Source of the DNA: Cloacibacillus evryensis DSM 19522
GTDB lineage: Bacteria; Synergistota; Synergistia; Synergistales; Synergistaceae
Assembly: GCF_000585335.1 (NCBI RefSeq)
Contig: NZ_KK073872.1
Location: forward strand, 2,471,283-2,535,282
Length of the DNA: 64,000 nt
Direction: 5' to 3'
Below, one piece after another: positions 12,150-51,376 of this stretch. How positions within the stretch are numbered: position 1 is the first letter of the stretch; each line of letters starts with the position of its first letter. Position numbers and translations under genes: made by a program. The notes under the pieces were generated by a model that worked only from the letters and a program-made list of their open reading frames with translations, did no database searches and had not been told where the DNA came from.

Positions 12150-12425
12150 CTATATCAACTCCATGTTTTTTATATATCTAAGGAAGAGTTTACTATAATT
12201 GAGAGACAGGGGCAATTGACTTAGGTAATTTTTCAAAACGGATATCTCAACGATGATCAAAAAAATGATAAACTGCGATTTATCCCGTCATGCCGGGTTT
12301 GACCAAGCATCAGGCGGTTTAGGTTTTGCTTCACAAGCGAAAAACAAAAACTTAAAGCCCCCGGCCCCGGGGGCAGGCCCGTGGCGGCGGTGGATTGGCG
12401 ACGGCGCGCAAAAACAGAAAAAATC
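12150..12425. other. 276-base gap: possible decayed repeat and terminator
   Basis: No convincing gene. Bases 12285-12315 contain a cgtcatgccgggtttgacc-type stretch like dispersed repeats of many genomes. Bases ~12318-12356 can fold on themselves (GGTTTTGCTTC against GCGAAAAACAAAAAC). A terminator lies at 12336-12374. A 65-codon open frame across it is probably repeat-derived. Confidence 0.4.
12336..12374 (-). terminator. Terminator after the BMP-family gene
   Basis: Minus-strand stem GCCCC / GGGGC with extra GC pairing (12357-12374), followed by TTTAAGTTTTTGTTTTT. Confidence 0.6.
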
Positions 12426-45999: not shown

Positions 46000-46040
46000 A
46001 AGAGTTTGACGCGTCCGCCCCGCGGCGACGAACACCGCTG

Positions 46041-46068
46041 TTGACTTTTCTAAACTATCGTCTATAAT
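46041..46068 (+). promoter_or_regulatory. Promoter of the DEAD-box helicase gene
   Basis: TTGACT (46041-46046), 16-base spacer, TATAAT (46063-46068), 318 bases before the start codon. Confidence 0.75.
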
Positions 46069-46074
46069 ACATAG

Positions 46075-46385
46075 GTTGCGCGGCATGGGTCCGCGCTTCG
46101 CATAAATTCTTTACACCGCGTACGATGTAACTGAGGAGTATTTTTCTTACCGCCTGGCCGGATTGCGCGTCACAAGAATTTTGTGCATGGATGCAACGGG
46201 GCAGATACCGATATTTAGTCGGTCTATTGTTTAAACTGCGTAAAGATATTTACCTGACAGACGCATGCCTTTCAAAAGAGCTGGCTGTATCGTAAATACA
46301 GCGGCAAGCTCGTTTGCCGGCAGGCGCCGATATATAGCTGAACGCGATTTTCAACGCCCCCAATATATTTAGGAGGTAGTCTATA
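46075..46385 (+). promoter_or_regulatory. Long structured 5' leader of the DEAD-box helicase
   Basis: About 310 bases between the predicted start of transcription and the ATG without a convincing gene. Clear hairpins: ACCGA/TCGGT (46207-46223), GCTGTAT/ATACAGC (46284-46302) and CGGCAA/TTGCCG (46302-46319), with the ribosome-binding site AGGAGG at the end. Long leaders of this sort control cold-shock helicases in other bacteria. Confidence 0.6.
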
Positions 46386-48182
46386 ATGACACAGGAAATT
46401 CAGGAAAAATTTTCAGATTTTGATCTGAACCCCGCGCTGATCAAAGCGATCGAGCGCAAGGGATTTGAACATCCGATGCCCGTCCAGACGGCGGTGCTTG
46501 AGGATGAAACTATCATGGACAACGACGTCATCGTCCAGGCGAAGACCGGTTCGGGCAAGACGCTCGCCTTTGCCCTGCCGCTTTTGAACCAGATCAACGC
46601 CAGAGAGAGGATGCCGCAAATCATAGTCCTTTCGCCGACCCGCGAACTCGCCCAGCAGACGGCCCGGGAGTTCGCATGGCTCGGAGCCGATCTCGGGGTG
46701 CGCGTCGCGACGCTTGTCGGCGGCCTTGATATGGAGCGCCAGATACGCGCGCTGCGCGACGGCGCTTCCGTGGTCGTCGGCACGCCCGGGCGTATTCTCG
46801 ACCATCTGCGTCGCGGCACGCTGAAAACGGAAGACATAAAGAGCGTCGTCCTCGACGAGGGCGACCATATGCTCGATATGGGCTTCCACGATGAGATGGA
46901 AGCGATACTCAAAGCGATGGACCACGTGGAACGCACCTGGCTCTTCTCCGCCACGATGCCGCCCGAGGTCCTTTCGCTCACAAAGCAGTACCTGAACGCG
47001 CCGAAAAAGATCTCGCTCGTATCCGACGTAACTTCGCACAGCGAGATCACGCAGAAGGCCTATATAATCCCCTCGCGCAGACGTTTTGAGGGACTCACCA
47101 ACGTGCTGATATGGGAAAATCCCAGCAAGTCGCTGATCTTCTGCGGTACCCGCGCGGAGACGCAGGATATCGCGGACAAGCTCTGCGACATCGGCTTCCG
47201 CGCCACCGCGATACACGGCGACATGAGCCAGCGCGAGCGCAACAACGCCCTTTCGGCGCTGCGCGGCGGACGCGTCTCCATCCTTGTCGCGACGGACGTC
47301 GCGGCGCGCGGTCTGGATATCGACGCGGTGAGCCACGTCCTCCAGTACGGCCTGCCGCAGAACCTTGAGGCGTTCGTCCACCGCAGCGGACGCACGGGAC
47401 GCGCGGGACATGAGGGCAGCAACCTCATCCTCCTTACGGCGCGTGAGGCGCGCCAGTTCAAAGGGATGATCATGCATTCGGGATCTAAACTCAAGCTTGA
47501 ATGGATACCAGCGCCGGACGCCGAAGAGATCGAAGGGCAGGCGCGCGTCCGTTTCGAGAATAACATTCTCGAACACGCGCTCGAATCAAATGAATTCGAG
47601 TCATGGGCGCAGGAACTGCTCAAACGCGAGGAGGCTCCGGTACTGGTCTCAGGGCTGCTCGCCAAGGCATACGGGGACCAGCCGTCGGGTTATTCGATAC
47701 GCGAGGACGTCCAACATGAAATGGACCGCGAGAAGGGCCGCCGCGACTCAAGCTCAGGGGCGGCACGCGGAGAGAGGACGCAGGGGCAGCACAAAGACCG
47801 TTTCCAGCGCCCGGACATGACAGGCGGCGTAGCCGTGCAGCTCGCGCAGGGGCGCGACGACGGCTGGGAGGTCGGTCCGCTGCTTGGCGCGCTTTGCCGC
47901 AACATCGGCATCGGCCGCGAGGATGTGGGAAACATCAAACTCCGTGATTCAAGCGCGACGGTGGAACTTTCTCCCCGCGGCGCGGCGCTCCTCGAGGCGC
48001 GCAAGGACCGTCTTGAGAGAGACGGCCTCACCGTCAGCTCCGTAAAACCGGCGACGGGCGGAGAACGCCGCGGCTCTTTCCGCTCGGATTCCAAACCTCC
48101 GCGCCGCGACGGCGGGTTCCGCAGGGACCGTGACCGTGATAGAGACGGCGAGCGCGCGGGAAGAAGGCGCTTCACAAAGTAA
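46386..48182 (+). CDS. DEAD-box RNA helicase (CsdA/DbpA-like) with C-terminal RNA-binding domain
   Basis: A 598-residue helicase. Q motif FDLNPALIKAIERKGFEHPMPVQ (in part), motif I AKTGSGKT, Ia PTRELAQQ, Ib TPGRILDHL, motif II DEGD (instead of DEAD), III SAT, and VI HRSGRTGRAG. After the two RecA domains a RNA-binding domain of the DbpA/CsdA type occupies about 480-555 (NIGIGREDVGNIKLRDSSATVEL), then a basic Arg/Gly/Asp-rich tail. It likely remodels rRNA or mRNA structure, for example during ribosome assembly in the cold. Own promoter with long leader; followed by a terminator. Confidence 0.93.
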   Translation: MTQEIQEKFSDFDLNPALIKAIERKGFEHPMPVQTAVLEDETIMDNDVIVQAKTGSGKTLAFALPLLNQINARERMPQIIVLSPTRELAQQTAREFAWLGADLGVRVATLVGGLDMERQIRALRDGASVVVGTPGRILDHLRRGTLKTEDIKSVVLDEGDHMLDMGFHDEMEAILKAMDHVERTWLFSATMPPEVLSLTKQYLNAPKKISLVSDVTSHSEITQKAYIIPSRRRFEGLTNVLIWENPSKSLIFCGTRAETQDIADKLCDIGFRATAIHGDMSQRERNNALSALRGGRVSILVATDVAARGLDIDAVSHVLQYGLPQNLEAFVHRSGRTGRAGHEGSNLILLTAREARQFKGMIMHSGSKLKLEWIPAPDAEEIEGQARVRFENNILEHALESNEFESWAQELLKREEAPVLVSGLLAKAYGDQPSGYSIREDVQHEMDREKGRRDSSSGAARGERTQGQHKDRFQRPDMTGGVAVQLAQGRDDGWEVGPLLGALCRNIGIGREDVGNIKLRDSSATVELSPRGAALLEARKDRLERDGLTVSSVKPATGGERRGSFRSDSKPPRRDGGFRRDRDRDRDGERAGRRRFTK

Positions 48183-48226
48183 GGCCGGTTATGTAACACC
48201 GCTGACAGATGTAATGTAATATTGTG

Positions 48227-48258
48227 AGCGCCCCGCTGTGAACGGCGGGGCGCTTTTC
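48227..48258 (+). terminator. Terminator of the helicase gene
   Basis: 10-bp stem AGCGCCCCGC / GCGGGGCGCT followed by TTTCGCG. Confidence 0.85.
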
Positions 48259-48320
48259 GCGTTATGCCCAGGGCAAACGCGTCAAGAAAGGTCAGGTAAA
48301 TGGTAAACCGGGGTTTATCT

Positions 48321-48540
48321 AAGGCCTTTGGCTCCCTCTCCGAGGGGGCTCCGGCGAAGCCGGTGGAGGAGGGTTGACTTTGGGTTTTGCTTCTTGTTTC
48401 TGCTCTTTGCCTTATCTTCTTCCGCGAAAGAGGCGAAAGAAGATAAGATCAAGAGCAATACAAAACCCAAGGTCAAAACTCCTCCAGTCTCGGCGGAAAA
48501 ACACCGCCGAGCCAGCCCCCTCGGAGAGGGGGCCTTTAAG
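48321..48540. repeat. Large (~220 bp) imperfect palindromic element
   Basis: Nested inverted repeats centred near 48430. Outer arms CCCTCTCCGAGGGGGCT (left) match their complement at 48513-48532; each arm has a side hairpin (CCGGC-GAA-GCCGG left; CTCGGCGG/CCGCCGAG right). Next, TGGAGGAG and GACTTTGGGTTTT match ACTCCTCCA and AAAACCCAAGGTC. The core CTTATCTTCTT / AAAGAAGATAAG closes the structure. As RNA it would form one long branched hairpin. Confidence 0.85.
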
Positions 48541-48764
48541 AGCAAACACTAAAAATCGCTGAATATCGACAAATTGTTTTTTGCGAGCGCCCGCTAAATC
48601 GCTGTTTATCTTCCCCCGGAATCGTTTATAAACGCCAATTCACCCTCTGTTGCCCTGTTGATGTGTTTGCCCTGGCGTTATGCCCTTTTAAACTGCATAC
48701 TTGAAGATTCCTTTCCAACTGCTATCATCATACTACAATATATGATATGTGAGGAGGCGCGGAA

Positions 48765-49325
48765 ATGGACTTTATAAAACTGGCAAAAGAGCGTTATTCG
48801 GTGAGAAAATTTGCCGGCCGGAAGGTCGAAAAGGAAAAGATCGCACAGATACTCGAGGCTGGCCGGCTCGCCCCCACCGCCGCAAATTACCAGCCGCAGA
48901 GAATACTGGTCATCGAGAGCGGCGAAAGCCTGGCAAAACTGAAAGGCTGCACGCCCTACCACTTCAACGCGCCGCTCGCCCTGCTCGTCTGTTATGACAG
49001 GACGGCGAGCTGGAAGCGTCCTTACGACGGATATGACATGGGAGCGGTCGACGCCGCGATCGTCGCCGCGCAGATGATGCTGGAGGCGACGGCGCTGGGC
49101 CTCGGCACCACTTGGGTCGGCCATTTCGATCCGGCCGCGGTGAGAGAGGCATTCGAGCTGCCGGAGTATTTGGAGCCTGTGGCGCTCCTGCCGACAGGGT
49201 ATCCTCACGAAAACGCGAGGCCGAGCCGCCTGCACGACGACCGTCTCGACCTCGAGGACACTGTCTTTTACAACGCTTTCGCGGGGCTCGAAGCGGGGCG
49301 AAAGGGCGCGGGCGCGCACGATTAG
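48765..49325 (+). CDS. Nitroreductase family FMN protein
   Basis: A 186-residue flavoprotein of the nitroreductase fold: LAKERYSVRKFAGRKV (FMN phosphate-binding arginines), LAPTAANYQPQRILVI, and GLGTTWVGHFD. It reduces nitro compounds, quinones or flavins with NAD(P)H. Good GAGGAGG site. A flavodoxin-like gene begins 21 bases downstream, so the two are likely co-transcribed and may share a redox role. Confidence 0.9.
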   Translation: MDFIKLAKERYSVRKFAGRKVEKEKIAQILEAGRLAPTAANYQPQRILVIESGESLAKLKGCTPYHFNAPLALLVCYDRTASWKRPYDGYDMGAVDAAIVAAQMMLEATALGLGTTWVGHFDPAAVREAFELPEYLEPVALLPTGYPHENARPSRLHDDRLDLEDTVFYNAFAGLEAGRKGAGAHD

Positions 49326-49346
49326 CTCGCGGAGGAAGAAAATAAT

Positions 49347-50018
49347 ATGAAGATATATATTCTGGACGGAGGTCCGCGAAAAAACCGGAACACCTCCGCC
49401 ATGTGCGAAAGTTTCGCCAAAGGGGCCGCCGGCGCGGGAGCGGAGACGGAGACCATCCGCCTCTTCGACTACAGCTATACCGGCTGCCGCAGCTGCTTCG
49501 CCTGCAAAGTGCGGGGAGGAAGCTCGTTCGGCCGCTGCGGCTGGCGCGACGGGATATCCGAACTGCTGGAGGCCGCCGCAAACGCGGACGGCGTGGTATT
49601 CGCGTCGCCCGTCTATCTGGGAACGATCACGCCGCAGCTTCACGCGTTCGTCGAGAGACTGGTCTTCCCCTTCATAGTCTACGACAAAAATTACAGCGTC
49701 ATTGCTCCGAAAAGGTTTGAAACCGCCGTAATCTATACGATGAACGTCAAGGAGCGGATGTTCGCGGACGAATATATCGGCGCGGAGAACGGCGGCCCGC
49801 TGGGGTTCTTCGAGCGTTATGTGACGCGCGTCTTTACGAAGCCCGAACGCGTCTGCGCCTTCAACACCTATCAGTTCGACGATTACGGCAAATATGTCGC
49901 CGATGGCTGGGACGAGCGGGAAAAGGCGGAATGGAGGGCGCGAGAGCTCCCGCGGGAGCTGCAAAACGCCTTTGACGCCGGCGCCCGCATGGCGGAAAAG
50001 ATAAAGAAAAACCTGTAA
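49347..50018 (+). CDS. Flavodoxin-fold NAD(P)H-dependent FMN reductase
   Basis: A 223-residue protein of the WrbA/NADPH-dependent FMN reductase group. The FMN phosphate loop is LDGGPRKNRNTSAM; FDYSYTGCRSCFACK carries a C-x-x-C-x-x-C cluster found in a subfamily of such reductases (iron-sulfur flavoprotein-like), and ADGVVFASPVYLGTITPQL is the flavin loop. With three cysteines it may bind an Fe-S cluster or metal. GGAGGAA site present. Ends at a bidirectional terminator. Confidence 0.85.
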   Translation: MKIYILDGGPRKNRNTSAMCESFAKGAAGAGAETETIRLFDYSYTGCRSCFACKVRGGSSFGRCGWRDGISELLEAAANADGVVFASPVYLGTITPQLHAFVERLVFPFIVYDKNYSVIAPKRFETAVIYTMNVKERMFADEYIGAENGGPLGFFERYVTRVFTKPERVCAFNTYQFDDYGKYVADGWDEREKAEWRARELPRELQNAFDAGARMAEKIKKNL

Positions 50019-51183: not shown

Positions 51184-51376
51184 GCCGGGTACAGACGTAT
51201 CAAGGCTTTTGATCAAAACATTGGGCGACCGGCTTTCATGCGTTTGCCCTGCCGCATTGCCGCTTTCATATTGAATAACTCCCTGAATTTATTTATAATT
51301 CTTAAAGATGATATAGAGACGGCAAAAGAAAATCTCTTCACCGGATATCTGCCAGGAAAGGAATAGGGCGCTGATA

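Follow-up and report, generated by a model that had tools for sequence, protein, structure and literature searches.

The nested palindrome and the unit that carries it

Between the helicase and nitroreductase genes of Cloacibacillus evryensis DSM 19522 there is a large nested palindrome, found at about 48330-48534 of the window, by which we mean the whole 64,000-nucleotide stretch analysed here (positions 2471283-2535282 of a genome of 3.49 Mb in one contig). A repeat finder resolved the palindrome into three nested pairs of arms of 21, 26 and 25 nt: an outer pair (48330-48350/48514-48534, 21 nt, 95% complementarity), a middle pair (48364-48389/48461-48486, 26 nt, 88%) and an inner pair (48401-48425/48433-48457, 25 nt, 84%). 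Folded as single-stranded DNA, the region 48300-48560 reached -81.8 kcal/mol compared with -38.4 +/- 3.9 for 200 shuffled versions (z = -11.0), none of which folded as well, and the nested palindrome with outer arms and an inner stem described in an earlier note on this DNA is therefore real. Within the 64-kb window, the arm sequence CCCTCTCCGAGGGGGCT occurs just at the two arm sites of the palindrome, even when 3 mismatches are allowed.

A close-up view of the left arm shows a first hairpin (hereafter hp1), GGCTCCCTC-TCC-GAGGGGGCT, at 48330-48350 of the plus strand, which belongs to the constant part of the family, followed at 48351-48363 (plus strand) by a variable hairpin (hp2) of the form CCGGC-GAA-GCCGG with a GNA triloop. 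Then come the left half of the long middle stem (TGGAGGAGGGTTGACTTTGGGTTTTG, 48364-48389, plus strand), an inner stem-loop with an TTATCTTCTT stem (48401-48457) and the right half of the middle stem (48461-48486, minus strand), whereas the right arm is read on the minus strand, with its hp2 (CTCGGCGG...CCGCCGAG) at 48489-48511 and its hp1 at 48514-48534. The palindrome is flanked by two 14-bp boxes of the type TAAA(Y)NNNN(R)TTTA, TAAACCGGGGTTTA at 48304-48317 on the left and TAAATCGCTGTTTA at 48595-48608 on the right, and the same boxes bound other composites in the host genome. One more box, TAAACTGCGATTTA, similar to those found at the borders of repeat modules in other parts of the genome, is present at 12269-12282 of the window.

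The earlier note had placed the element at 48321-48540, which stands for the inner part only: the whole unit, with its transposon ends and a target duplication, extends over 406 bp (48269-48674) and, as judged from these ends and this duplication, corresponds to an ISAs1-type non-autonomous, MITE-like composite. Its left and right terminal inverted repeats, of 17 bp each, are CAGGGCAAACGCGTCAA (48269-48285, plus strand) and CAGGGCAAACACATCAA (48658-48674, minus strand), both contained in a repeat finder pair at 48268-48285/48658-48675 (CAGGGCAAACRCRTCAA), and directly outside them the 10-bp target-site duplication GCGTTATGCC occurs as a perfect pair (10/10 identical) at 48259-48268 and 48675-48684. 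No ORF of at least 80 aa overlaps the palindrome or lies inside 48269-48674.

The host also carries a full-length insertion sequence with nearly identical ends. The ISAs1-type end is found 20 times in the genome with at most one mismatch, and four pairs of ends, 1297, 1297, 1295 and 1240 bp apart (a mismatch in 1 of the 8 ends), enclose full-length insertion sequences with 10-bp target duplications, three of them perfect and the fourth with one mismatch. One of these copies encodes an intact transposase of 375 aa, which scored 420 bits with the NCBIfam model transpos_ISAs1 against a cut-off of 70. Each end of the window unit matches those of the full-length IS at 16 of 17 positions, and its left end agrees with the right end of the IS at 23 of the first 25 bases. 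As a side observation, another full-length copy of the ISAs1 family (991710-993004 of the genome), whose ends and duplication are intact, has no ORF of at least 150 aa and adjoins a palindrome-bearing composite. In the window itself, a lone ISAs1-type end with one mismatch (51235-51251, minus strand) is found just downstream of a gene end, its partner being absent from the 320 bases read.

A second palindrome-bearing composite of this kind, at 412256-412767 of the genome, is bounded by ends of the same type, one of which carries a mismatch, and by the duplication CAATTTTCAT. The right flank of this composite meets a single similar stretch (8/10 bases) in G134, a congeneric genome in which the left flank is unalignable. 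At the site equivalent to that of the window, the same congener, the one congeneric genome compared, lacks the 406-bp element, although it does not offer a clean empty site, since an HxlR-like gene (recognised by eye) is present there instead; moreover, an arm occurs in G134 upstream of the helicase gene, where the window has none. With IS-like ends, a 10-bp duplication, no transposase of its own and an autonomous partner in the same genome, the 406-bp unit would qualify as a MITE on sequence grounds. It would have inserted between the helicase and nitroreductase genes leaving the 10-bp target duplication, and the most likely agent is a transposase of the ISAs1 family that recognised the 17-bp ends in trans. 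As each of these ends departs from those of the IS at one of its 17 positions, and the two interiors have nothing in common, cross-mobilisation by that very transposase can only be presumed.

The palindrome itself is far more frequent than such units. A BLAST comparison of 48318-48546 with the genome gave 61 matches, self and inverted ones included, which collapse to 29 places once neighbours less than 3 kb apart are merged, and an ISAs1-type end with at most one mismatch is found near 5 of the 29 places, whereas the other 24 have none within 2.5 kb. Two more places (at 361 kb and 3396 kb) show apparent decayed ends of this type, as seen by eye. The ISAs1 route therefore accounts for a minority of the copies, and since copies without these ends exist, the palindrome has to be regarded as a separate cargo and not as the interior of the element. 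This cargo (about 48318-48546) may be described as an inverted doublet of REP-like monomers, each made of a constant hairpin followed by a variable one that is mostly kept paired. Altogether, we consider it probable that the window holds an ISAs1-type element carrying a REP-like doublet, which in this host spread partly as a passenger and partly through a further process that does not involve a RAYT transposase.

The repeated monomer and its guests

A regular expression for the arm detected 36 uninterrupted arms, 19 of which were selected for alignment. All the aligned arms show a constant hp1 (GSCTCCCTC-NNN-GAGGGRGST or GSCCCCCTC...), then hp2 and finally a GGAGGAG-type tail. Among 122 non-redundant monomers, taken from the loci collected up to then, hp2 was present as 81 distinct sequences, and 108 of the 122 can form a stem of 4 bp or more when G-T is counted as a pair, whereas shuffled hp2 did so in 15-50% of cases, depending on the source. 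When only the 48 distinct hp2 whose triloop is closed by 4 or more perfect base pairs are considered, the loop is GNA in 38 of them (37 closed by a C-G pair) and the complementary TNC in 2. Such a diversity of sequences with retained pairing and loop indicates that the stem changes freely, whereas the pairing and the loop on one strand are mostly kept. In DNA, loops of the C(GNA)G type have exceptional stability, such mini-hairpins being the subject of published work, and a reading of the GNA loop in terms of DNA and not RNA, based on this known chemistry, suggests that one strand of the arm folds as DNA; the monomer would then act as folded single-stranded DNA.

Genome-wide, the arm core CTCCCTCNNNGAGGGRGST gave 37 matches (21 forward and 16 reverse) and the control with the reversed pattern none. 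With 29 places and 37 arm cores, the element is clearly multi-copy in its own genome, and the non-autonomous repeat that the earlier note thought possible is supported. The strict core pattern found 34 of the 37 arms in the DNA examined, distributed in 24 loci, 14 of them with one strict arm and 10 with two. In all 10 loci with two strict arms these follow the same inverted order, even in two cases where other material lies between them, namely further arms at the 91-92 kb locus and an intron at the 450-452 kb locus. None of the 34 strict arms falls within an ORF of at least 150 aa, and those ORFs of 100-143 aa that contain 17 of the 34 were taken as spurious. Other arrangements also occur, such as direct-repeat monomers at the 92220 locus and an inside-out order in genome G103.

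The outer flanks vary between copies of the palindrome, in which 14-bp boxes (TAAAYNNNNRTTTA) separate modules, and in some copies other modules are inserted in hp1. At three loci of the host genome (L012, L003 and L010, at 893 kb, 437 kb and 3396 kb, respectively) we noted two further hairpin modules of about 50-60 nt within hp1, which share GTGCGANTCG and have relatives with divergent stems in G134 (L093) and G163 (L102).

The arms also receive larger guests. Eight paired copies of an IS3-like element bounded by CGGGACTCTGTTCA were recognised, and inspection of all 16 ends located them within hp1 (16/16). The 14-nt end pattern gave 45 matches with at most 2 mismatches (6 for the control), of which the 8 pairs use 16, including all 13 exact ones, whereas the remaining 29 may include remnants. 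A clean short duplication (GGA, 3 bp) was seen in 1 of the 8 copies and in most of them the two flanks derive from different arms, as if copies had recombined afterwards. In the case of a group II intron, 4 of the 5 copies counted by their 5' end start directly after hp2, while the fifth (L278, at 1291768 of the genome) directly follows the 3' end of another intron. Three intron 3' ends that adjoin an arm continue with TTGACYTTGGG. The intron RNA, analysed in one copy, corresponds to Rfam group-II-D1D4-3 above the gathering score. Two ORFs in one copy of the IS3-like element matched the IS3-family transposase model, and two frames in one copy of the intron matched a reverse transcriptase/maturase model, in both cases below the NCBIfam cut-off, as expected of broken or split frames. 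The arm thus serves as a fixed landing pad for both the IS3-like element and the group II intron.

Comparison with the congener was extended to other loci through 21 flank pieces from 11 of them (24 had been prepared and 3 were left out), and 7 regions were compared. At the 893 locus (893590-894090 of the host against L236) the outer modules are common to both congeners and the cassettes between them differ; at the 1946 and 3396 loci the element is absent in the congener; and at the 2626 locus, 1 of the 7 compared sites, the arm sequence is present in the congener too. The 2755 and 991 loci were compared by BLAST blocks only. No exact empty site was detected among the 7 regions, and the 412 locus showed a similar single target on the right flank only. 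A search for target duplications around 101 monomers (loci L091 upward, including a few from the host genome), with re-paired flanks as control, revealed no consistent length. Repeats of at least 7 bp flank 5 of the 101 monomers when about 1.4 were expected, the longest one having 14 bp (L164), and the 7-bp repeat of L161 shares its offset. By eye, the 14-bp direct repeat around the monomer of L164, a viral contig (near 4171-4217), takes in the ribosome-binding region of the gene that follows.

Distribution beyond the host and candidate mechanisms of spread

Within the phylum of the host, Synergistota, which would be distinct from that of the Selenomonas and Clostridia carriers, 7 of 185 genomes contain the arm core: the host itself (G000, 37 matches), G134 (22), G163 (8), G103 (3), G156 (2), G147 (1) and G160 (1). 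The reversed control gave 4 matches in three other genomes, and single matches in this search are consequently near noise. In the class of the Clostridiales assembly G189, a genome chosen as a carrier and itself included in the count, 12 of 291 genomes contain the core, each of them with between 1 and 35 matches, and the control gave none; as one site can be matched on both strands, the two matches of G242 are to be read as one place. An exact 21-mer, GGCTCCCTCTCCGAGGGGGCT, was detected in 6 stretches from assemblies titled Selenomonas, Veillonellaceae, Clostridia and Clostridiales, two of which (L121 and L123) are the same DNA. The occurrence in distant bacteria advanced by the earlier note is thus borne out. 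Such a patchy and multi-copy distribution would fit horizontal movement. A search of a plasmid collection with the palindrome gave no match.

The monomer pattern also matched 32 stretches of viral contigs, some of them sharing a contig. In the 27 of these 32 stretches that were inspected, the monomers are mostly single, with inverted pairs in L146. The viral contigs L146 and L157 hold up to 11 monomers per stretch, some of them about 159 bp apart, a spacing that possibly reflects a repeated coding unit. Monomers were found in frame within two kinds of viral proteins: a portal-like protein, recognised by eye, in 2 of the 12 loci where the region could be recognised (out of 24), and a short protein, recognised in 6 of 37 loci, with a monomer in L150 and L171 and another palindrome at that place in L200. 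The in-frame positions are 1746-1789 in L147, 616-659 in L145, 10695-10738 in L150 and 123-166 in L171, to which L200 is to be added. A broader count, with 30 of 51 viral monomers in stop-to-stop frames of at least 200 codons, was set aside, since in GC-rich DNA open frames of this kind frequently arise without being genes. The palindrome would seem to have different carriers, an ISAs1-type element here and viral contigs elsewhere.

A more far-reaching proposal, which we advance only as a tentative one, is that the monomer of 45-75 nt is a REP-like unit orphan of any transposase, acting as folded single-stranded DNA and crossing phyla on phages and mobile elements. Its hp2 would be continually rewritten with the pairing and the GNA loop kept, for example by templated hairpin repair, and the arm would be a shared landing pad.

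In our opinion, it is rather unlikely that some other, unseen DNA transposon has the arms as its terminal inverted repeats and the doublet of about 200 bp as its ordinary MITE. Such a transposon would agree with the uniform inverted orientation of the 10 loci with two strict arms, with the different outer flanks of the copies and with the slight excess of flanking repeats among the 101 monomers. Terminal repeats, however, would hardly occur as the mostly single monomers of the viral stretches, as direct repeats (92220) or inside-out (G103); moreover, those long gaps between arms that were read contain only the IS3-like element or the intron, and the target duplications lack a consistent length.

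An ISAs1-type element carrying a REP-like doublet remains our preferred reading, and three other explanations appear highly improbable. RAYT transposases offer the best account of REP repeats, and the arms could be REPs or REPINs mobilised in single-stranded form by a Y1 tyrosine transposase recognising a GTAG-tagged hairpin. The family certainly resembles REPs in being a short multi-copy palindrome, extragenic in its own genome, with inverted doublets and strand-asymmetric loops. Y1_Tnp was searched for in the host genome and 31 others, in two sets, the second one comprising 9 of the 11 other carriers of the class (without G413 and G423) and 13 non-carriers, and some match was obtained in 6 of 9 carriers of the first set (5 over the cut-off) and in 6 of 9 of the second. 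The host genome, however, gave no Y1_Tnp match, and neither did the carriers G163, G156, G186, G240, G293 and G396, even though G240 and G293 have 27 and 28 arm core matches, respectively; 7 of the 13 non-carriers do have the enzyme, and none of 8 Y1 loci showed an arm in the 2.6-3.4 kb around. Furthermore, a GTAG tag within 8 nt on the 5' side was found in 0 of 122 monomers (CGTC in 12), and on the 3' side, where 25 nt were considered, GTAG occurs in 3 and CGTC in 11 of 122. With neither a general GTAG or CGTC tag nor a RAYT in the genome, the palindrome is filed as REP-like and not as a REP. The link with a REP-type (RAYT) transposase suggested by the earlier note did not hold up, and the idea that a RAYT drives this family in this host is largely refuted.

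Equally improbable is that the palindrome is a mere interior of the ISAs1-type element with no history of its own: in the window it lies wholly within the ISAs1-type ends, but those 24 of 29 places without them, and the arms of distant bacteria and viral contigs, tell against it. A strong inverted repeat that lies just where the helicase gene has its downstream side could also evoke a conserved RNA element or a terminator of the neighbouring genes, a very doubtful view given that a separate short inverted repeat (48227-48254) already precedes the palindrome, that none of the 11 Rfam matches up to E = 5 in 46000-50000 reached the gathering score, that a congener has no palindrome at this place and that in every arm a single strand has the GNA triloop, yet arms occur in both orientations. 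Those Rfam matches, mostly to microRNA families, were judged to be due to chance (best E of 1.6e-05, with 34.7 bits against 108).

Relationship with known palindromic repeats

No paper on this palindrome family was found, although the literature was covered in part and this is weak evidence of novelty. REP, BIME and REPIN repeats are multi-copy extragenic palindromes forming mosaics and inverted doublets, which are targeted by dedicated ISs (PMC1525189, PMC2817692, PMC3116915), and REPs usually exceed 100 copies (PMC2817692). A group II intron is tabulated with REPs too, in 2 of 9 (PMC1525189), and REP sequences are tabulated for three Bacillota species (PMC12306157). In the accessible part of PMC3733652, the phyla listed with GTAG and CGTC repeats omit Bacillota and Synergistota, and both CGTC repeats without a dedicated transposase and REPs inside genes are described. 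Repeats that lack a transposase and REPs within genes are thus already known, and those two features are not new as such. The AT-rich palindromes of PMC9318921, from what is accessible of that work, are unrelated to the present ones.

Repeats without a RAYT, such as the CGTC group, are an acknowledged gap in the field (PMC3733652). The family presented here is comparable to them and occurs in the phylum of the host as well as in Clostridia, Selenomonas and viral contigs, several of its carriers being devoid of a Y1 enzyme, which renders the spread of REPs without transposase testable. In addition, the preferences of the IS3-like element and the group II intron would provide two independent probes of folded single-stranded DNA in the cell.

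When compared with known systems, the 406-bp unit shares with ISAs1-family ISs and their MITEs the CAGGG... ends, near-identical to those of the full-length IS of the host, and the 10-bp duplication, but its interior is a nested palindromic composite and not a deleted IS. Palindromic elements of Rickettsia can insert in frame in genes, a behaviour that may be paralleled here by the palindromes in frame in two viral protein families, whereas the window family has no general CGTC tag (12/122) and is extragenic in the window. A CGTC end is described for the Rickettsia elements (PMC3733652). REP-targeting elements of the IS3 family such as IS1397 are known (PMC1525189). As for IS1397, ISKpn1 and ISPsy8, the likeness is that the 8 paired copies of the IS3-like element all sit in the palindrome; in this case, however, the IS and the host are others, and insertion is aimed at the loop of another kind of palindrome. 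Finally, the family resembles REP, BIME and REPIN repeats as a set of multi-copy extragenic palindromes, with mosaics and inverted doublets, that are targets of insertions, and it differs from them in having neither the GTAG tag nor a host RAYT, in occurring in tens and not hundreds of copies, and in a monomer made of two hairpins, the second of which is hypervariable.
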